Of a DNA stretch of 64,000 nucleotides, positions 62 to 47,772 are shown piece after piece (the first letter of the stretch is position 1; each line of letters begins with the position of its first letter). The position numbers and the translations under genes were made by a program. Origin of the DNA: Lactiplantibacillus songbeiensis (lineage in GTDB: Bacteria; Bacillota; Bacilli; Lactobacillales; Lactobacillaceae); the NCBI RefSeq assembly GCF_005405125.1, contig NZ_BJDL01000003.1:1-64000 (forward strand), given 5' to 3'. A model generated the notes under the pieces. It worked only from the letters and a program-made list of their open reading frames with translations, did no database searches and had not been told where the DNA came from.

Positions 62-160
62 TTTGGGGTACACCTCAGCTTTGGCTTCAAAATGGTCCAT
101 GGCGTTCCAGCGTTTTAGGAACCAACCGGCAGGCGGCAATTTCAACTGGCGCTAAGCGTA
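62..160 (-). repeat. Palindromic repeat, left-module fragment
   Basis: Read on the minus strand, this is the left end of the composite repeat described at 35547-35942: a degenerate copy of the terminal CTTGGTGCTAGTT motif, then GCCGCCTGCCGGTTGG, TCCTAAAACGCTGGAACG and the CATGG..CATTTTGAAGCC block. A second short copy of the GGCTTCAAAATGG block lies at 200-212. The rest of the element is missing or outside the window. The first 60 bases show no gene. Confidence 0.75.
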
Positions 161-1740: not shown

Positions 1741-1786
1741 AAGTGTAAAGCGCCTCCTATAACGCGTAATGGGTCAACCTATGTAG

Positions 1787-2689: not shown

Positions 2690-2735
2690 AAAATAAGTGC
2701 TTATATTGATGGTTTTCTAGTTATTAATTGGGCCG

Positions 2736-2845
2736 CTTGGTGCTAGTCAAAATTGCCGTCTACCGGTTGGCTGCTAAAATGCTCGCTGTGGGCTATTTTA
2801 GAAGTCAACCAGAGTGGCAAGTTTAATCCAACTAACGCTAATCAC
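2736..2845 (+). repeat. Palindromic repeat, shortened copy with both ends
   Basis: Begins with CTTGGTGCTAGT and the CCGGTTGG block, and ends with CAACCAGAGTGGCAAG and a CCAACTAACGCTAA end. The centre of the composite element is missing, leaving about 110 bp. It lies between the transporter promoter and the terminator of the aminotransferase gene. Confidence 0.75.
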
Positions 2846-6171: not shown

Positions 6172-6385
6172 CGTGCTCGGTTACCTCGTTTCCAAATATG
6201 TAGACTTTTTAATGCTAATTAGCTTGGGCTTGTTGTTCTGGTTAAGCCGGAGTTGGCTGGAACGTGGCGACTTTAACTAACATTAGGATGAAACTTACTT
6301 TAAATTTAGCTTAATTGGGTGTTAGTTGCAACTTGTGACTGTAGTCGATATTGGTAGATCATATGATTATTAATCAGAATAAATG

Positions 6386-6556
6386 CTTAGCGCTAGTTGA
6401 ACTTGCCGCCTGCTGGTTGAGTTTGTGGTCGACAATAGACAATCATTAATTCCCGTTGATTAACGCCGGGCGGGCCAGAATTGGCTCAGCGGCCACCACG
6501 TTCCAGCCGATTCTGGACCAACCAGAGTGGCAATTTACGCCAACTAACACCAAGCG
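6386..6556 (+). repeat. Palindromic composite repeat with deleted hairpins
   Basis: Has both outer ends (CTTAGCGCTAGTTGAACTTG and CCAACTAACACCAAGCG) and the start and end of the right module (ACGCCGGGCGGGCCAGAAT ... CCAGCCGATTCTGG). The inner hairpin of the right module is cleanly missing: GGCTCAG is joined directly to CGGCCACCACG. About 170 bp remain of the roughly 396-bp full form. Confidence 0.8.
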
Positions 6557-6634
6557 TAGACTAAGCCTTTTGTTTTAATTAACGAAGCCAGGCTGGCTGA
6601 TTAAACAAATTCTGGTTTTAGTTCTGAAGACAGC

Positions 6635-8433: not shown

Positions 8434-8444
8434 GGAGTAAGCAT

Positions 8445-8513
8445 TGCCGCCTGCCGGTTGGTTGCTAAAATGCTGGACCAACCAGAGTGGTAAGTGCTAG
8501 CTAACTAGTGTTT
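8445..8513 (+). repeat. Minimal palindromic repeat copy
   Basis: Only the two ends remain: GCCGCCTGCCGGTTGG with TGCTAAAATGCTGG, joined directly to ACCAACCAGAGTGG and a GTGCTAGCTAACTAGTG end. About 70 bp; the smallest copy in the window. Confidence 0.7.
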
Positions 8514-11947: not shown

Positions 11948-12050
11948 CTAGGTGCTAGTGGTATTGTTGGCAACTGGTTAAAATATATCTGGTAATTAAT
12001 GCCAGCCGATTCTGGCCCAACCAGAGTGGCAAGTTAAACCAAACTAGCAA
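11948..12050 (+). repeat. Palindromic repeat, eroded copy
   Basis: Starts with GGTGCTAGTGG, has a degenerate centre, and ends with GCCAGCCGATTCTGGCCC, AACCAGAGTGGCAAG and CCAAACTAGC. It separates parB from the DUF951 gene. Confidence 0.65.
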
Positions 12051-14446: not shown

Positions 14447-14607
14447 AATTAACGCCGGGCGGGTCAGAATTGGCTCAATGGTGTCGTTTGACTTAGCCGG
14501 TGGTTTTTCCGGGTTAGTCAAAGCCCGGCTTATGAGACCGTCCTGTGGCTCATAACCGCGGCCACCACGTTCCAGCCGATTCTGGCCCAACCAGAGTGGC
14601 AAATTAG
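14447..14607 (+). repeat. Palindromic repeat, right module
   Basis: Nearly complete right module of the composite element: TAACGCCGGGCGGGTCAGAA, GTGTCGTTTGACTTAGCCGG with the inverted CCGGGTTAGTCAAAGCCCGG, GCGGCCACCACGTTCCAGCC and CAACCAGAGTGGCAA. It lacks the left module. The remaining 220 bases up to guaB hold no gene; a weak hairpin AAATGC / GCATTT at 14744-14770 is the only other structure seen. Confidence 0.8.
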
Positions 14608-19496: not shown

Positions 19497-19668
19497 GATT
19501 AAACTTGCCACTCTGGTTGGGTCAGCATTGGCTGGAACGTGGTGGCCGCGTTTATGAGCCATAGGGCGGTCGCATAAGCCGGGCTTTTACTAAATCGGAA
19601 AATCGCCGATTAAGTAAAACGACACCACTGAGCCAATGCTGACCCGCCCGGCGTTAATTAACTGGCTA
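19497..19668 (-). repeat. Palindromic repeat, right module, inverted
   Basis: The right module in reverse orientation: TTGCCACTCTGGTTGGGTC, GCTGGAACGTGGTGGCCGCG, GCCGGGCTTTTACTAAATCG with the inverted CGATTAAGTAAAACGACACC, and TGACCCGCCCGGCGTTAA. It faces the copy at 19874-20035. Confidence 0.8.
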
Positions 19669-19873: not shown

Positions 19874-20035
19874 CTTAATCAGCGCAGGGCGGGCTGGATG
19901 ATGCTCAGTGGTGAAATTTTACTTGGTCGAGTGATTTTCTCGGCCTAGTAAAAGCCCGGCTTGGAAGACCGTACTATGGCTTCCAAACGCGGCCACCACG
20001 TTCCAGCATCAAGCCAGACCACCCGGAGCGGCAAA
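19874..20035 (+). repeat. Diverged palindromic repeat, right module
   Basis: Right module with distinct inner sequence: GCGCAGGGCGGGCTGGATGA, TTTTACTTGGTCGAG paired with CTCGGCCTAGTAAAA, GCCCGGCTTGGAAGACC, GCGGCCACCACGTTCCAGCA and CGGAGCGGCAA. Stem changes are compensated (GGATGATGC with GCATCAAGCC), suggesting structure is kept while sequence drifts. The 200 bases between this and the previous copy hold no gene. Confidence 0.7.
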
Positions 20036-22827: not shown

Positions 22828-22990
22828 TGTTAGCTAACGACGGGCGGGCCAGAATTGGCTCAGTGGTGTCGTTTATCTTAGACGGTGATTTTCCGTCTTA
22901 GATAAAGCCCGGCTTATGAGACCGTACTATGGCTCATAAACGCGGCCACCACGTTCCAGCCGATTCTGACCCAACCAGAGTGGCAAGTTC
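22828..22990 (+). repeat. Palindromic repeat, right module
   Basis: Complete right module: CGACGGGCGGGCCAGAATTG, GTTTATCTTAGACGG with the inverted CCGTCTTAGATAAAG, GCCCGGCTTATGAGACC, GCGGCCACCACGTTCCAGCC and CCAACCAGAGTGGCAAG. It lies between two convergent genes. Confidence 0.85.
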
Positions 22991-27104: not shown

Positions 27105-27275
27105 CTCCGCTGACCAGAAATTTAACGCGGTGGGGCGGACCTGACAGCCACAGTGCGGTCTGTCAGGCGCCTTTAAGCCTAGAACCCGAGGCCCAGCCAC
27201 TAAACCGGGAAAAGCACCGGCTTAGTGGCTCGTCACGGCGTTAATTTCTGGCCAGCTCCGACTGGGTTAACGATT
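27105..27275 (+). repeat. Second type of palindromic repeat, longer copy
   Basis: Outer arms CTGACCAGAAATTTAACGC and GCGTTAATTTCTGGCCAG are inverted copies. Inside are GACCTGACAGCC / GGTCTGTCAGGC and CCAGCCACTAAACCGG / CCGGCTTAGTGGCTCG hairpins. The GCGGTGGGGC block and the CAGCC..GTGCGGTCTG core link it to the element at 14205-14315. About 170 bp, intergenic. Confidence 0.65.
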
Positions 27276-27384: not shown

Positions 27385-27545
27385 AAGTTAACGCCGGGCG
27401 GGTCAGAATTGGCTCAGTGGTGTCGTTTGACTTAGTCGGTGATTTTCCGGCTTAGTCAAAGCCCGGCTTTTGAGACCGCCTTGTGGCTCAAAAACGCGGC
27501 CACCACGTTCCAGACAATTCTGACCCAACCAGAGTGGTAACTTCC
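27385..27545 (+). repeat. Palindromic repeat, right module
   Basis: Complete right module: TTAACGCCGGGCGGGTCAGA, GTTTGACTTAGTCGG with CCGGCTTAGTCAAAG, GCCCGGCTTTTGAGACC, GCGGCCACCACGTTCCAGAC and ACCCAACCAGAGTGGTAAC. Confidence 0.85.
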
Positions 27546-32334: not shown

Positions 32335-32387
32335 GGTACATATATAGTATTTAAAAGCTGGTATACTAAAAAATAAACTTAATATAC

Positions 32388-32462
32388 GCCTGGTGCTAGG
32401 TGAACTTGCCGCCTGCCGGTTGGTTCCTAAAATGCTGGAACGCCATGGGTCATTTTGAAACC
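32388..32462 (+). repeat. Palindromic repeat, left-module fragment
   Basis: GGTGCTAGGTGAACTTGCCG, CCTGCCGGTTGGTTCCTAAA and TGCTGGAACGCCATGGGTCA, then the match stops at TTTTGAAACC. The right part is missing. Confidence 0.75.
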
Positions 32463-32632
32463 AAATAAGTCCGTGTACTTCTAATCAAGTTGATGCCATT
32501 TCTTATCTTCCAGTTTGTGTTTCAACAGTAAGTGGTTGCGACCGATGCAAAATAATCGAGCATCTGAGCGACTTATAAAGTGTTAATTATGATAATAATG
32601 ATATTAGGCTTTTAAACGGCACTCAGTCATGG

Positions 32633-32937: not shown

Positions 32938-35475
32938 ATGGTAACAAATGAAAAGCAAATTGAACATATTAGTGTACGGGGCGGTAACGTCCATAACTTA
33001 AAAAATATTAATGTTGATATTCCACTGAACCGGTTTGTGGCCATTTCAGGGCCTTCGGGATCAGGTAAAAGCTCGTTAGCGATGGGCATTTTGTATGCAG
33101 AAGGATCGCGGCGTTATCTAGAGGCACTCTCAACCTATACGCGCCGGCGCATCGGTCAAAGTAAACGGTCGCAAGTCCAGGAGGTCAAACATATTCCGTC
33201 CGCGATTGCCTTGCGTCAACGGCCGAGTGTTCCGTCAGAACGCTCAACCGTGGGGTCAATGAGTGAATTGTTCAACGTGGTGCGACTGATCTTTTCACGG
33301 TTAGGCTCAATGGTTTGTCCCAACGGGCATCGCCTGGCGCCTAGTCTCAAAGTGGCGCAATCGATGGATTTACCCGGTGGGGCTGACAGCAAGATGGGCT
33401 ATGTGACGTGTCCAGAATGTGGCGTTGAATTTATGGCGAAGTCTGCGGAAGACTTTGCCTTCAATTCTGGTGGCGCTTGTCCAGAATGTCATGGGACCGG
33501 GAAAGTTCAGGAATTAGATGAAGCTAAGTTAATTGGCGATGAAAACTTGAGCCTGGCTGAAGGAGTCGTAGCATCGTGGCATTTACCTGGCCGGAACTTT
33601 ATGCCAACTGTAGCGGAAACCCTGGGCGTGCGCATCAATGTTCCTTATAAAGATTTAACTGATCATGAAAAAGACATTGTGTTGAATGGCGCGAAGAAAC
33701 AATATCCGGTTGACTTTCGAACTTCGACAGGTCGGGTCTTCCATACGGATAAAACATTGTATGAAAATGCCCATGCAGCGGTCTATGACTCACTTAAAAC
33801 GGTTAAAAGTGAACGCGCGATTAACAAAGTGAACCAATTCTTCCACTTTTCAGTTTGCCCGACTTGTCATGGAACCCGCTTGAATCCAGAATTATTAACC
33901 CAATTAGTTGGCAGTAAGAATATTGCCGAAGTTGCGGATCTGACGCTTGGAACCTTGACTGATTGGCAAGCTGAAGCCCAAAAAGACTTGCCACAAGAAA
34001 TGACCGCGATGGCGACCGTTTTATTTAAAAACTTAACGGATACGTTGCGGCCACTACTTGAGCTAGGTCTTGATTACTTAACGTTAGCGCGTAATGGAAA
34101 TACCTTGTCGACTGGTGAATTACAACGACTCCAACTAGCCAAGACGATTCGGACAGAGACAACTGGCGTGTTGTATGTTTTAGATGAACCGTCAATTGGG
34201 TTACATCCTGACAACGTCAAAGGCTTGATTCGGATCTTTAGAGAATTGATTGCCCAAGGAAATTCGTTAGTGGTCGTTGATCATGAAGTCGACATCATTG
34301 AAGCCGCCGATTGGGTGATTGAGATTGGTCCGGGTTCTGGCGATGCTGGTGGAAATGTGATTGCTGAAGGCACGCCGCAATCGTTAGTCGGTAATCCCAA
34401 GTCGTTGATTGGCCCATATATTTCAGGCCAAGCGTCAATTATGCACGAAAAGGTGCCAACTGCTAAAAAGGCCAGTGAGTTGACGACTGAGTTTGAAGTG
34501 CAAGATTACTTTAATTTGCACGATGTTGCTGTTTCAATTCCAGGTAATGAAATCACGGCGGTGACCGGTTTTTCCGGTGCCGGGAAGACGAGTCTAATCT
34601 TAGACAGTCTAGTACCCGCGATCAAAGCGGTTAACGAAAAGGCGGCTTTGCCTAAACAAGTGAAGCGGCTAAAAACCCATTTAACCGATGTGGTTTCCGT
34701 CGATGCTAAGCCCATTGGTAAAAACACGCGGTCAACGATTGCAACTTACACGACAATCATGGATAATTTACGGCGGTTATTTGCGAGCTTACCAGCCGCC
34801 AAAGCTAAAAAGTACAGTCTGGCCTATTTTTCGTACAATAATAAGCAAGGCGCCTGTGAGCAATGCGGCGGGCTCGGGACGATTACGTTGGATATTCAAT
34901 ATTTGCCAGATATGGAAGAAGTCTGCCCTTACTGTCATGGGGCGCGTTATAAAGATGAGATTCAGCAGATTCGCTGGCATGGCTATAACATTGTTGATTT
35001 ATTGAACTTATCCGTTCGTGAGGCGTTAGCTGTTTTTGAAACGGTGCCTAAGATTGAGAAACAGTTACAATTGCTGGATGAGATGGGGCTCGGCTATTTG
35101 CATTTAGGTGAAAGCACGCCGAGCTTGTCTGGTGGCGAAGCCCAACGGTTAAAGCTGATGAGTCATCTGAATAAACGTCAAAACAAAACGCTATTTATTT
35201 TTGATGAACCTTCTGTTGGCTTGCACCCCCAAGATGTCCAAACCTTGTTGGGTGTGATCAATAGTTTGAAGGCAAAAGGCGCCACAATCATTATTATCAC
35301 CCATGATCTGGACTTGATGACCAATGCCGATTACTTAATCGACTTGGGACCTAAAGGCGGTCAAGCCGGTGGGCAATTAATGGCTAGTGGTGAACCTCAG
35401 CAATTGATTAAAACCGCTAAAAGTTTGACGTTGGATTACTTGAAGGCGCATTTCCAGAAGTTTGATTTAGTATAG
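32938..35475 (+). CDS. UvrA-like ABC ATPase with shortened UvrB-binding region
   Basis: 845 residues, about 100 shorter than normal UvrA. Two ABC modules are present: Walker [10 protein letters not shown] (about residue 38) and GFSGAGKTS (about 546), signatures LSTGELQRLQLA and LSGGEAQRLKLM, and Walker B LYVLDEPSIGLHP and LFIFDEPSVGLHP. Zinc motifs are CPECGVEF..CPECHGTG and CEQCGGLG..CPYCHG. The stretch between LFSRLGSMVC and the first zinc motif is only about 50 residues where the UvrB-binding domain should be. This is the class II UvrA type, often tied to resistance to DNA-binding antibiotics (family knowledge), so a repair role with UvrB is doubtful. GTGGCT..ATG start; own terminator. Confidence 0.88.
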   Translation: MVTNEKQIEHISVRGGNVHNLKNINVDIPLNRFVAISGPSGSGKSSLAMGILYAEGSRRYLEALSTYTRRRIGQSKRSQVQEVKHIPSAIALRQRPSVPSERSTVGSMSELFNVVRLIFSRLGSMVCPNGHRLAPSLKVAQSMDLPGGADSKMGYVTCPECGVEFMAKSAEDFAFNSGGACPECHGTGKVQELDEAKLIGDENLSLAEGVVASWHLPGRNFMPTVAETLGVRINVPYKDLTDHEKDIVLNGAKKQYPVDFRTSTGRVFHTDKTLYENAHAAVYDSLKTVKSERAINKVNQFFHFSVCPTCHGTRLNPELLTQLVGSKNIAEVADLTLGTLTDWQAEAQKDLPQEMTAMATVLFKNLTDTLRPLLELGLDYLTLARNGNTLSTGELQRLQLAKTIRTETTGVLYVLDEPSIGLHPDNVKGLIRIFRELIAQGNSLVVVDHEVDIIEAADWVIEIGPGSGDAGGNVIAEGTPQSLVGNPKSLIGPYISGQASIMHEKVPTAKKASELTTEFEVQDYFNLHDVAVSIPGNEITAVTGFSGAGKTSLILDSLVPAIKAVNEKAALPKQVKRLKTHLTDVVSVDAKPIGKNTRSTIATYTTIMDNLRRLFASLPAAKAKKYSLAYFSYNNKQGACEQCGGLGTITLDIQYLPDMEEVCPYCHGARYKDEIQQIRWHGYNIVDLLNLSVREALAVFETVPKIEKQLQLLDEMGLGYLHLGESTPSLSGGEAQRLKLMSHLNKRQNKTLFIFDEPSVGLHPQDVQTLLGVINSLKAKGATIIIITHDLDLMTNADYLIDLGPKGGQAGGQLMASGEPQQLIKTAKSLTLDYLKAHFQKFDLV

Positions 35476-35485
35476 AATGTTCAAG

Positions 35486-35524
35486 AAAAGGACCAGTGAC
35501 CCCAATAGTGGTTGCTGGTCTTTT
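35486..35524 (+). terminator. Terminator of the UvrA-like gene
   Basis: AAAAGGACCAGTGACC / GTGGTTGCTGGTCTTTT near-perfect stem with a 6-base loop, 10 bases after the stop. Confidence 0.88.
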
Positions 35525-35546
35525 AGTCGTGGATTATATATTGGAA

Positions 35547-35942
35547 ACGCTTGGTGCTAGTTAAACTTGTCGCCTGCCGGTTGGTTCCTAAAACGCTGGA
35601 ACGCCATGGGCCAGTTTGAAGCCAAAGTGTGGTCTTCAAAACTGGCCTTGGCCTAAGTCCGAGCAGACCACTCGCACTAAGGCCAACGACACGGCTGAGC
35701 ATTTTAGGAACCATAAATGGCCGAACTGAAAATAATCAATCGTTAACTTTTTAATAGCCGTTAGTTAACGGCGGGCGGGCCAGAATTGGCTCAGTGGTAT
35801 CGTTTATCTTGGTCGGTGATTTTCCGACTTAGATAAAGCCCGGCTTTCGAGACCGTATTGTGGCTCGAAAACGCGGCCACCACGGTTCCAGCCGATTCTG
35901 GACCAACCAGAGTGGCAATTTAAACCAACTAGCACCAAGCGT
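35547..35942. repeat. Full-length composite palindromic element with inverted ends
   Basis: About 396 bp. The ends are inverted copies: ACGCTTGGTGCTAGTT at the left and AACTAGCACCAAGCGT at the right, then CTTGTCGCCTGCCGGTTGG against CCAACCAGAGTGGCAATTT. The left module folds through GGTTCCTAAAACGC / GCATTTTAGGAACC around GGCCTAAGTCCGAGC / CTCGCACTAAGGCC; the right module folds through GGGCCAGAATTGGCT / AGCCGATTCTGGACC around TTTATCTTGGTCGG / CCGACTTAGATAAAG. No reading frame of note. No clear target duplication at the flanks. This is the reference copy for the other repeat entries. Confidence 0.88.
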
Positions 35943-35972
35943 ATTAGTTCTTAGTGAATAGCATAAGTACAA

Positions 35973-35999
35973 AGGGATAGTTTTTGCTATCTCTTTTTT
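35973..35999 (+). terminator. Orphan terminator of the GGGATAG type
   Basis: GGGATAG / CTATCTC hairpin with a TTTTTG loop and a six-T tail. No gene stands directly upstream (the repeat does), so it looks left over from a lost or displaced gene. Confidence 0.7.
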
Positions 36000-44046: not shown

Positions 44047-47000
44047 TTAAGCGTGTCGATGGAAGCTGTAACTGCCTAACAACAAGCAAAGCAAGAAGCT
44101 AACGAGGCCAATCATCACTAAATCAATGGCTGGATGGTCGTTAGTTTGTGGCAACCGATTGCTAGGAATCGCGTTGGCCGGTGTGCCAGTAGCAGCTGGT
44201 GCATTGGTCGTGGTATCATTCGTCACAGTTGGCGCCGTTTGTGAACTTGGCTGGCTAGTGACGGGTGTCGCCGTTGCTGGAATCGGTGTCGTTGGTGTTG
44301 CGATGCTTGGCTTAAATGGTGCGACGGCTGGCTTCTCAGCACTTGGCTTAACTGGTTTAGCAGCACTTGGCCGACTGGGCTTAGTCACGCTCGGCTTATT
44401 CGGTTTGGTGACACTAGGTTTTTTATCTGGTGTGGCCGGATGAGTTGGGGTGGTTGTTGCTGGATGTTCAGGTTCAGGCTTGCCAGGAGTTTCCGGTGCC
44501 GGAACGCTAGGTTGTTCTGGCTGTGGGGTTCCTGGTTGCGGCTGGCTAGGTGTACCTGGTTCAGTTGTCCCTGGTTCGCTAGGCACTTCGTCGCTTTCGT
44601 CACGATCAACCGTGGCATGCGCTGAACCGCCGTTACCGTTGTCATCTTCATAGATGGCCGCGTTAGCGAAGCTGTCATTGCCGCTGGCGGCTAACGTCTG
44701 ATAGGTTAACGTGAAGTCATGAGTAAGCTTGCCAGTAATCGTAAAGACGAGCTGGTGACCCACGACCGTCACTTTAACGGGCAATATTTTGCCGGTGCTG
44801 TCTATCACCTTGGCACTGCCGTCGACATAAGTTAAGTCCGCGCTACTGTCATCAGTGATCTTAGGATTCAGCAAGTCGTTGCCATTGGCGGCAATCTTGA
44901 TTGTCCAGTCAATCTTGGTGAAAGTGCCCGGATCAGCCCAAGTGGCATTTTTGGTCATCCCAATATCTTTGGTAACTGGTTGTTCGGGTTCAACTGGCAA
45001 CTCATCGCGGTCAATCGAGGCTTCCGCTGACGCATTGTTGTCAGCTTCGTCTTGATAGATGGCGGCGTTGTCAAAGATAGTGGCACCCGTTGGTTTGGTC
45101 GTTTGCGTTTGATAGGTCAAATGCAAGTTTTCCGTAAACGTGCCGCTTAACTTAAAGGTCAGCTCGGAGCCCTTCACGGTAACCGTCAGTGGAATACTGG
45201 TTCCGCTGGCAGTGGATGCCTTAGCACTGCCGTCAACAAACGTTTGATTATTGGTAAATTCATCAATAATCTCCGGGTTAACGAGCTTATTCCCATTGGC
45301 CGCTACTTCCAGGCCCCAATTGATCTTGGTCTGATCGTTTGGGTCAGTCCAAGCGGCGAGCTTTGTCATCGCAATCGGCTTGACGGTTTCGTCAGGACCA
45401 TTGGGTTCATCAACTGGGCCTTCACGATCGAGGGCCGCTTGTGCTGTGGCCGTATTGCCATTGTCGTCGTGGTAAACGGCACTGTTTTCAAACGTTTCAT
45501 CACCCGTCGCATTGTCGGTCGTGGTCTGATAGCTGACTTTTAAAGCCGTAGTATAAGTACCCGTGACTTTGAACGTGACGACTTTGCCATTGGTCTCAAC
45601 GGTGAATGGTACCGCGGTCCCCGTCGTATCGGTGATCTTAGCACTGCCGCTGAGATAGCTATGGTTGGGACTTAACGTGTCGACAATGACGGGATTGGCC
45701 AGCTTTTGGTCGTTAGGTTCAACGACTAAGTGCCAGTCAATCTTAGTGAATTTACCAGGATCAGCCCAAGTGGCGGTCTTTGTCATGTCAATGGGTTCGG
45801 TTGCGCCCGGCTTTTCGGGTTCGGTCGGTTCAGTGGTCCGGTCGATTTCAGCCTGCGCGGTGGCGGAATTCTGATTGTCGTCACTGTAGTAGGCGACGTT
45901 ATCAAAGGTTTCGGTGCCGCTTGGCTGATCACTTTCCGTCTGATACGTGACGTGTAGGTCAGAATCAAACGTTCCAGTGACCTTGAACTCGACTTCGGTC
46001 CCGTTAGTCGAAGCGCTGACTGTTGCAGCTTTGCCAGCGCTGTCGGTGACACGAACACTGCCATCAACGTAACTCTGGTTGGCGCTTAGCTTATCAACAA
46101 TGACCGGATTGACTAATTTATGCTTGTTCGCTGAAATCGCCAATGCCCAGTTGATCTTAGTGAATGTCCCAGGATCAGCCCACGCAACGGATTTCTGCAT
46201 GGTAATCGGTTCCGTTGGGGTGGGTTCAGGTTCTTTCAGCGTACGATCGATGCTAGCGTTCGCGGAAGCATTGTGGCCGTTGTCGTCATGATAAACGGCC
46301 GCATTCGTAAAGGTTTCTAAGCTACGCGATCGTGCTGGGTACGGCGTGCTGGGCGTCGTTTGATAGGTGATCTTAAAACTACGCTTGACGGTGGTCCGCA
46401 GATGAAACGAGAGGCTGGAACCGTTGTTCACGGTCGCCACCGGTAACGTCTGCCCAAGTGAATCGGTCGCCCGCGTGCTTTGTGGCACGAAGCTTTGGTT
46501 ATCGCTGAGCTGGTCGTCGATAACTGGATTATCTAACGTATTACCGTTAGCGTTGACCCGAATCGTCCAATTTAGTTTAGTTGGATTAGTTGGATCGACC
46601 CAGCTGACACCTTTAGTCATGGAAATGGGTTTCGTGGGCGTTGGGGTCGGCGTTGGTTCTGGTGGGGTCTCAGGGGCAGCCCCAATGACGCCAATCCGAA
46701 TGAAGCCGCTACGTTGTGACATACTTTGTAGCCGACTATTTAACGTAATCAGCCCCACATGTGACCCGGACTTGATACTCGTGACCCCGCAGACGCCGAT
46801 ATTGCCGGAACCCGCGAGATCAAAGGAACGATCACCCACGACTTCCACATTAGCTGGTACGTAGAAGTGGACGGTATCACCGCTTTGAATCCGAATGGTA
46901 TTTGAAATCTTCCAGTTATAGTTAATTGTATATTCCTTATCTGGCGATAGCGTGGCGCTGTGTGAGACGACTCTACCGCGAGCGTCCTTGATGACACAGC

Positions 47001-47118
47001 TATTGGCATCCAGACCAGAAGCCGCCACTTCTTTGGCTTGACTAATCAGTGGTGGACTTAAAATCATGATGATTAGACCCGTAACCGCTAACAAAAGGTA
47101 TTGCCAAAACTTCCGCAT
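44047..47118 (-). CDS. LPQTN-anchored adhesin with five repeats
   Basis: 1023 residues. Signal peptide ends at SQAKE (about 30). An N-terminal adhesin-like domain runs to about 150 and has two Cys (NSCVIKD, GVCGVT), unusual for this genus. Five repeats of about 138 residues start near 166, 306, 443, 583 and 720; each opens with a short MTK or MQK motif and W(A/V/T)DP, then KINW-type strands and a DDN..A..A..DR end. This resembles collagen-binding-type domains (inference). A Pro/Lys-rich wall-spanning region (about 840-985) and LPQTND with a membrane segment end it. ATG at 47118 follows GGAGGGAG. Single gene, convergent with csc cluster 1. Confidence 0.9.
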   Translation of the reverse strand: MRKFWQYLLLAVTGLIIMILSPPLISQAKEVAASGLDANSCVIKDARGRVVSHSATLSPDKEYTINYNWKISNTIRIQSGDTVHFYVPANVEVVGDRSFDLAGSGNIGVCGVTSIKSGSHVGLITLNSRLQSMSQRSGFIRIGVIGAAPETPPEPTPTPTPTKPISMTKGVSWVDPTNPTKLNWTIRVNANGNTLDNPVIDDQLSDNQSFVPQSTRATDSLGQTLPVATVNNGSSLSFHLRTTVKRSFKITYQTTPSTPYPARSRSLETFTNAAVYHDDNGHNASANASIDRTLKEPEPTPTEPITMQKSVAWADPGTFTKINWALAISANKHKLVNPVIVDKLSANQSYVDGSVRVTDSAGKAATVSASTNGTEVEFKVTGTFDSDLHVTYQTESDQPSGTETFDNVAYYSDDNQNSATAQAEIDRTTEPTEPEKPGATEPIDMTKTATWADPGKFTKIDWHLVVEPNDQKLANPVIVDTLSPNHSYLSGSAKITDTTGTAVPFTVETNGKVVTFKVTGTYTTALKVSYQTTTDNATGDETFENSAVYHDDNGNTATAQAALDREGPVDEPNGPDETVKPIAMTKLAAWTDPNDQTKINWGLEVAANGNKLVNPEIIDEFTNNQTFVDGSAKASTASGTSIPLTVTVKGSELTFKLSGTFTENLHLTYQTQTTKPTGATIFDNAAIYQDEADNNASAEASIDRDELPVEPEQPVTKDIGMTKNATWADPGTFTKIDWTIKIAANGNDLLNPKITDDSSADLTYVDGSAKVIDSTGKILPVKVTVVGHQLVFTITGKLTHDFTLTYQTLAASGNDSFANAAIYEDDNGNGGSAHATVDRDESDEVPSEPGTTEPGTPSQPQPGTPQPEQPSVPAPETPGKPEPEHPATTTPTHPATPDKKPSVTKPNKPSVTKPSRPSAAKPVKPSAEKPAVAPFKPSIATPTTPIPATATPVTSQPSSQTAPTVTNDTTTNAPAATGTPANAIPSNRLPQTNDHPAIDLVMIGLVSFLLCLLLGSYSFHRHA

Positions 47119-47376
47119 CGTTACTCCCTCCAATCAATGCCGATTGTCTAACCCTAAGCGCAGTTCGTGCACTTAGTAACTTTAATCTAGCACGGGTCGC
47201 GGACGGTTAAGTCGATGAGGGATTATTTGGATAGCTTGCAAACTGGTGATTTTGGGGGTAACGATTAGTGGATATAAATCATTAATTAGTGGGGGATTGT
47301 TAACGTTGTGAGTGATGATGGTTTTTGACTAGGCTTGGTTTAAAATGGTTATTTTAAAAATTAACTATTTTAATAC

Positions 47377-47772
47377 CTTGGTGTTAGTTGAAATTACCGC
47401 CTGCCGGTTGGTTCCTAAAACGCTGGAACGCCATGGGCCATTTTGAAGCCAAAAACCAGTCTTCAAAGCTGACCTTGGCCTAAGTCCGAGCAGACCACTC
47501 GCACTAAGGCCAACGACACGGCTGTGCATTTTAGGAACCAACCTCTCGGCTAAATGACCGAACTGATGCTAATGTTTTTTAAATCCTGTTAGTTAACGGC
47601 GGGCGGCCCAGAATTGGCTTAGTGGTGTCGTTTATCTTAGGCGGTGGTTTTCCGACTTAGATAACCCCCGGCTTTCGAGACCGCATTTTGGCTTCCAAAC
47701 GTGGCCACCACTTTTCAGCCGAATCTGGTCCAACCAGAGTGGCAAGTTTAATCTAACTAACATTAAACATAG
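47377..47772. repeat. Second full-length composite palindromic element
   Basis: About 396 bp with the same order as the copy at 35547: left end CTTGGTGTTAGTTG, CCGCCTGCCGGTTGG, GGTTCCTAAAACGC paired with GCATTTTAGGAACC around CTAAGTCCGAGCAGACCACT; right module AACGGCGGGCGGCCCAGAAT to GGTCCAACCAGAGTGGCAAG, and right end CTAACTAACATTAAAC. Several stem bases in the right module differ from the other copies and are not compensated, so it is decaying. Intergenic, between the adhesin and oxalate decarboxylase genes. Confidence 0.85.

Follow-up and report, generated by a model that had tools for sequence, protein, structure and literature searches.

The 396-bp element at 35547-35942 (+) in a 64,000-nt stretch of the Lactiplantibacillus songbeiensis genome (referred to here as the window) is very probably a MITE that is moved in trans by a DDE transposase of the IS982 family. 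This conclusion is drawn from sequence comparisons, in which 16-bp ends, direct repeats, empty sites and an insertion sequence (IS) with the same ends all point to a MITE. Judged in this way, the element is short and gene-free, has inverted ends and apparent target duplications, is polymorphic in its insertion and has a same-ended putative autonomous partner. Its ends start with 5'-AC (ACGCTTGG) and its direct repeats are of variable length, as would be expected of the IS982 group. The original prediction, made from the window alone, had proposed either a non-autonomous mobile element or a structured-RNA repeat. Both descriptions apply, the signs of mobility being accompanied by compensated stems, whether these act as RNA or as folded DNA.

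The reference copy at 35547, which has relatives elsewhere in the 3.03-Mb genome of its Lactiplantibacillus host, starts with the left terminal inverted repeat ACGCTTGGTGCTAGTT (35547..35562, +) and ends with an exact inverted copy of it (35927..35942, -), confirming the exact 16-base inverted ends that had been claimed for the better of two long copies. The halves of the element are inverted copies of each other over approximately 157 of 160 bases, with gaps, and no ORF of at least 100 codons is present inside. The predicted RNA fold of -179 kcal/mol (z -11 on the plus strand and -13 on the minus strand) and the DNA fold (z -13) are far beyond chance. Y module A (35588..35709, -) and Y module B (35780..35901, +) score 118.8 and 124.9 bits with the covariance model R1, both being within the 87-sequence alignment from which R1 was built. 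Each long copy had been described as two nested hairpin modules; the two modules are there, but the fold of each half is a three-way (Y) junction and not a simple nested hairpin. The second long copy, predicted at 47377-47772, was indeed found (47374..47772, +). It is more eroded, showing 84% identity to the reference over reference positions 4-388 of the alignment, and harbours a module A (47415..47536, -; R1 112.6 bits) and a module B (47608..47728, +; R1 114.9 bits). L. dongliensis carries a shorter remnant at the orthologous place. The L. dongliensis sequence orthologous to window 35524-35975 (L057:4841-7032) holds approximately 2.2 kb of other DNA and no reported element, and the site of the reference copy is thus without a clean empty counterpart. 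A gene for an 845-aa UvrA-like ABC ATPase (32938-35475, +) lies directly upstream of the reference copy, and the second copy is adjoined by a gene for a 1028-aa protein with a collagen-binding domain (44047-47133, -).

Including both long copies, 13 element places were found in the window (BLAST, 1e-5). Fragments consisting of the left end and the first part of the element are located at 79..159 (-) and 32386..32465 (+), and short fragments at 8444..8493 (+) and 12002..12049 (+). Internally deleted copies are found at 2733..2835 (+) and, with both ends kept, at 6383..6557 (+). At 2733 and 12002 L. dongliensis has a longer copy. Single Y modules occur at 14464..14585 (+; R1 123.8 bits) and 22849..22969 (+; R1 134.8 bits). 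The modules at 19522..19642 (-; R1 120.9 bits) and 19894..20014 (+; R1 122 bits) form an inverted pair, as left and right partner, with approximately 250 nt between them, while the module at 27403..27523 (+; R1 128.1 bits) has a weak partner at 27114-27251 (-; 29.2 bits). With genes predicted mechanically as the longest ORFs of at least 80 codons, 12 of the 13 places are between genes and one is at the window edge. This agrees with the earlier statement that at least ten shorter copies lie between genes and none inside a gene, and five overlaps with ORFs appear when all sampled sequence of this genome is considered. That sample of 448 kb, composed of the window and 20 stretches chosen around copies and hence rich in them, contains 91 element places, 34 of them with both ends, and 123 module matches including weak ones. 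In these 21 stretches 79 places lie between genes and 7 at the edge of a stretch; the other 5 are overlapped by ORFs of 83-94 codons, which run over the element itself and are presumably spurious. At least 40 places in the genome match at least 295 of the 396 element bases (40 of 350 first-look candidates were scored and all 40 qualify); the 39 scored places besides the reference show 83-90% identity. Many copies are broken by internal deletion. Similar deletions (of approximately element positions 63-139 or 50-168) are found in several separate copies, at L048, L051, L045, L041 and L060, which suggests either that deleted forms spread or that the hairpin bases are deletion hot spots.

Evidence for movement came from direct repeats and from comparison with L. 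dongliensis 218-3, the nearest to the window among 20 other Lactiplantibacillus genomes by identity over the window. Forty-eight full copies were aligned, 22 from the window genome and 26 from L. dongliensis, with the element ends set at ACGCTTGG and CCAAGCGT. Direct repeats with a score of at least 5 flank 24 of these copies, against 0.47 expected from mispaired flanks of different copies; at least four insertions common to both species are counted twice in the 48, and one of them contributes two of the 24. The repeats are mostly 7-9 bp long, with 11 bp in one insertion common to both species and counted twice. The remaining 24 copies show no clear direct repeat. The reference copy is one of these, while the 47377 copy was outside the tested set. 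The earlier remark that no target duplication was seen is consequently true of the reference copy, but not of the family, which has repeats of 7-11 bp. When grouped by end-to-end distance, direct repeats were found for 1 of 12 copies below 240 bp, 4 of 11 of 240-360 bp and 24 of 49 of 360-450 bp. The low number in short forms fits a need for the module, and fits greater age as well.

Three loci read as filled in one of the two species and empty in the other. The copy at L049:17177-17572 of the window genome is flanked on both sides by ACTTATTTC, while L. dongliensis has a single ACTTATTTC and no element. Conversely, the L. dongliensis copy L060:13751-14020 is flanked by the 9-bp direct repeat ACATAGTAT, and the window is empty near 1780, the target site being 1778..1785 (no strand assigned). 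The third copy, L041:3868-4138, is present in the window genome and its site is empty in L. dongliensis; its own direct repeats are imperfect and none reaches the threshold. Four more gaps (window 6446, L039:16500, L076:5082 and L092:11152) were considered as empty sites and were not clean on inspection. In total 33 of the 91 places of the window genome and 25 of 76 L. dongliensis places could be mapped to stretches of the other species. Many mapped places are common to both, often with different internal deletions. Empty sites in relatives and target duplications, two of the signs of mobility that the original prediction had proposed to look for, are thus both present.

A transposase with the same ends had also been missing from the window, but a 958-bp IS982-family IS with the same 16-bp ends (ACGCTTGGTGCTAGTT) as the element exists in related species. 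L. nangangensis harbours two copies of this IS with a 290-aa frame free of stops, and a third with five stops. The transposase of one of the L. nangangensis copies reaches 219 bits with the NCBIfam IS982 model, whose cut-off is 130. In L. dongliensis three contigs break off after 77 bases of the IS (97% identity), as would be seen if the assembler had collapsed a repeated IS. One decayed copy with nine stops and recognizable ends, and a weak, unrelated-looking match, are present in the window genome; no intact IS of this kind was found among its candidates (5 of 5 scored). The L. daoliensis assembly contains element copies, of which L106 has a clear direct repeat and L105 one below the threshold, and gave no match to this transposase. 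The end motif, with at most one mismatch, occurs at 147 places in the window genome and at 138 in L. dongliensis, while the reversed motif, used as a control, occurs at none in either. The element and the IS have only 16-21 end bases in common. The interior is not derived from the IS by deletion; sharing of the ends alone makes a deleted IS less likely and leaves movement by the IS unaffected. In another genome (L227, G019:C2, 643-3512) two IS982-family copies lie approximately 0.9 kb apart with a 9-bp direct repeat, AGTTGAGAC, shared by their outer ends, an arrangement that resembles a composite transposon.

In the proposed mechanism, the IS982 transposase would bind the element ends, move the element into intergenic sites and duplicate the target at insertion. 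The Y module may be kept because its fold helps the element to persist, and this fold would most likely form in transcripts running through the element. Since both ends have the module facing outward, a transcript entering from either direction would meet a reversed module and then a module, and it is proposed that an insertion looks alike from either neighbouring gene. This function of the Y module is what we infer from its structure and orientation, both of which are conserved.

Module B is related to module A read in reverse, and each folds as a three-way junction of approximately 125 nt. From 237 module copies, 89 that are less than 93% alike were chosen, of which 87 were aligned and two left out. 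In this alignment 97.2% of the cells in 27 pairs are standard pairs, compared to 27-46% with the partners slid. In 18 of the 27 pairs both sides have changed (score 0.430 versus 0.165 after shuffling), and double-changed cells number 360 versus 116. An alignment of 27 matches at 20 fetched loci from ten other genomes (two of Lactiplantibacillus, eight of five other genera), which was fitted to the covariance model and leans towards it, gave 97.4% paired cells, with both partners altered in 21 of the 27 pairs (0.575 versus 0.182). Furthermore, 20 unpaired columns are conserved to at least 95% across genera, paired columns being on average as conserved (0.77 versus 0.71). The alignments indicate that the module stems are kept by compensatory changes, and the search for compensated changes across copies that had been recommended yielded a strong excess over shuffled alignments. 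Two outcomes had been named that would count against the original prediction, namely no empty sites and no excess of compensated changes; neither appeared. The ratio of G-U to A-C mismatches, by which an RNA fold would be distinguished from a DNA fold, is in three alignments 78:34, 19:7 and 21:22 cells, the first corresponding to 11 versus 11 pairs.

With the covariance model, at E 1e-4 and with up to 23 candidates scored per genome, 34 of 151 Lactobacillaceae genomes, belonging to 12 of 40 genera, have the module; the 117 genomes without a match at this level include one Lactiplantibacillus. Three genomes for which 150 candidates each were scored have 8, 58 and 102 matches, and the module also occurs in Levilactobacillus andaensis and Companilactobacillus musae records. 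The orientation of neighbouring modules is highly uniform. In the sampled sequence of the window genome 49 of 50 neighbouring modules at most 400 nt apart are (-)(+), outward at both ends, and one is (+)(+). In three genomes of other genera (G063, G093 and G144) all 34 neighbours among the 150 matches listed are (-)(+), which for G144 comprises 21 of 21 listed pairs at most 400 nt apart. A tandem (+)(+) pair was seen in G151 (L248). An earlier view that genome G001 has single modules is at least partly wrong, many of them adjoining a diverged second module.

This spread bears on how the pair and its ends are related. According to one reading, to which we give a nearly even chance, the true unit is the pair of Y modules, which would predate the ends and be a family-wide repeat set in genus-specific transposon ends that in Lactiplantibacillus are those of IS982. 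The occurrence in 12 genera and the constant pair orientation in G144 argue for it. In G144, the pairs end in GGTTCTTTyTTAAGTT (20 fetched loci, chosen for having pairs), unlike IS982 ends, and some of these loci show short direct repeats by eye. At 3 of 4 sites hand-picked for readable ends, the G144 flanks, when joined, fold into a hairpin that resembles a terminator and encloses the insertion point. However, only 5 of the 20 fetched loci have both ends at threshold, none of the end-motif places listed for G144 is paired at IS length, and a common ancestor whose ends have drifted would also be possible. Insertion into terminator loops was rejected as a rule for Lactiplantibacillus, where the 24 copies with direct repeats gave a mean z of -1.1 and the junction was enclosed by at least 7 pairs in 11 of 24.

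Going one step further, it is tentatively suggested that the outward Y pair defines a new class of non-autonomous elements of Lactobacillaceae, in which the core stays while the ends and the moving enzyme are exchanged between lineages. If so, the Y core would be a shield that makes insertions tolerable, or a signal of folded DNA. Such elements may carry small genes between the modules, as two G063 loci could illustrate. At these loci (L243 and L244) inverted Y modules enclose approximately 360-400 nt, with a 39-codon ORF in one and an 86-codon ORF in the other. In G063 the modules are carried by longer stems that are specific to each copy and in some cases bear runs of A and T, as in bidirectional terminators. 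A toxin-antitoxin cargo in G063 was considered and dropped, the 86-aa ORF having no Pfam family. A BLAST search of 72,556 plasmid and 50,697 phage records with the window element gave no match. Of four module queries from other genomes, two find no plasmid and two find the same two Levilactobacillus brevis plasmids. One L. brevis plasmid, p5 (NZ_CP021461.1; L287, 2646-3122), has an inverted module pair with one weak partner, next to an S8 peptidase gene at its 3' end. Viral contigs were scanned with two exact patterns, which returned 4 and 0 stretches, and the 4 hold no module according to the covariance model.

That the modules are structured RNAs or cis-signals serving the host, comparable to REP sequences and only incidentally mobile, is considered unlikely. 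The unpaired letters that are conserved between genera, and the stems that covary, would suit such a role. It would also be suited by the distribution of the element among intergenic regions, of which it occupies 22 of 54 between convergent, 35 of 130 between tandem and 14 of 61 between divergent genes, and by the better conservation of module B compared to its neighbourhood at 19 G001 loci, which were picked by their match to B. Between tandem genes, however, the element favours neither strand (18 copies on the same strand as the genes, 21 on the opposite one), internal deletions disrupt many copies, and at three loci one species has the element and the other lacks it. In addition, copies common to both species have diverged at about the rate of their flanks: for the 12 such copies of at least 100 bp, among 33 mapped places, identity is 93.5% in the element and 93.2% in the flanks. 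This equality means that nothing shows each copy to serve the host. Leaving out two badly aligned rows (0.64 and 0.73) the values become approximately 96% and 94%, and slight constraint on shared copies is possible. The correction of quasi-palindromes by template switching is known, and one arm of a long palindrome could likewise be copied onto the other so that the stems are compensated without selection, but this reading is improbable given the conserved unpaired columns, even though paired columns are similar in this respect, and given three differences each in L036/L076 and L047/L088 that lack compensating partners (by eye, in 2 of 4 full alignments).

The MITE, very probably moved in trans by an IS982-family transposase, resembles with its Y module pair several known systems in part. 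The window has no Rfam match at gathering score, and eight loci of other genomes gave one match, mir-3938 at E 0.26, which was taken as chance. Searches of the open-access literature returned no description of the element or the Y module. A module detected in 12 of 40 genera, matched 102 times in a single genome and without an Rfam match, now becomes directly testable for function, and what was an anonymous repeat becomes a defined system with an element, ends, a candidate partner enzyme and empty sites. REPINs and BIMEs are intergenic, reach high copy numbers and consist of two inverted structured units with a spacer. By definition the units of a REPIN are short REP hairpins and a RAYT (Y1) transposase is encoded in the genome. 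The element is likewise intergenic and abundant, with two inverted structured units and a spacer, but its units are three-way junctions of approximately 125 nt instead of short hairpins, and its likely partner is a DDE transposase of the IS982 family.

BOX, RUP and other stem-loop repeats of Firmicutes are similarly intergenic and structured and occur in Gram-positive bacteria; in sections of the survey describing them, L. johnsonii is the only lactobacillus named, with one coding-region family (PMC2267715). Members of the IS982 family, such as ISLpl4 of L. plantarum, are described as approximately 1 kb long with one transposase, ends that begin with AC and direct repeats varying from 0 to 9 bp, 7-9 bp in many members (PMC7335449). 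The element agrees with this description in its AC ends, its variable direct repeats and its one-transposase partner of approximately 1 kb, but has no transposase gene itself and shares only the ends; the term MITE is absent from the main text of that review (PMC7335449). Bacterial MITEs are similar in general design, as far as the account in PMC10969869 describes them: short, gene-free and intergenic, with inverted ends, direct repeats (7-9 bp for QMITE2 of Coxiella) and stable transcript folds. The element differs from these in its interior, which is not a remnant of the partner IS but an inverted pair of modules with compensated stems, found in 12 genera, and the question raised is why unlike transposon ends enclose the same folded core.
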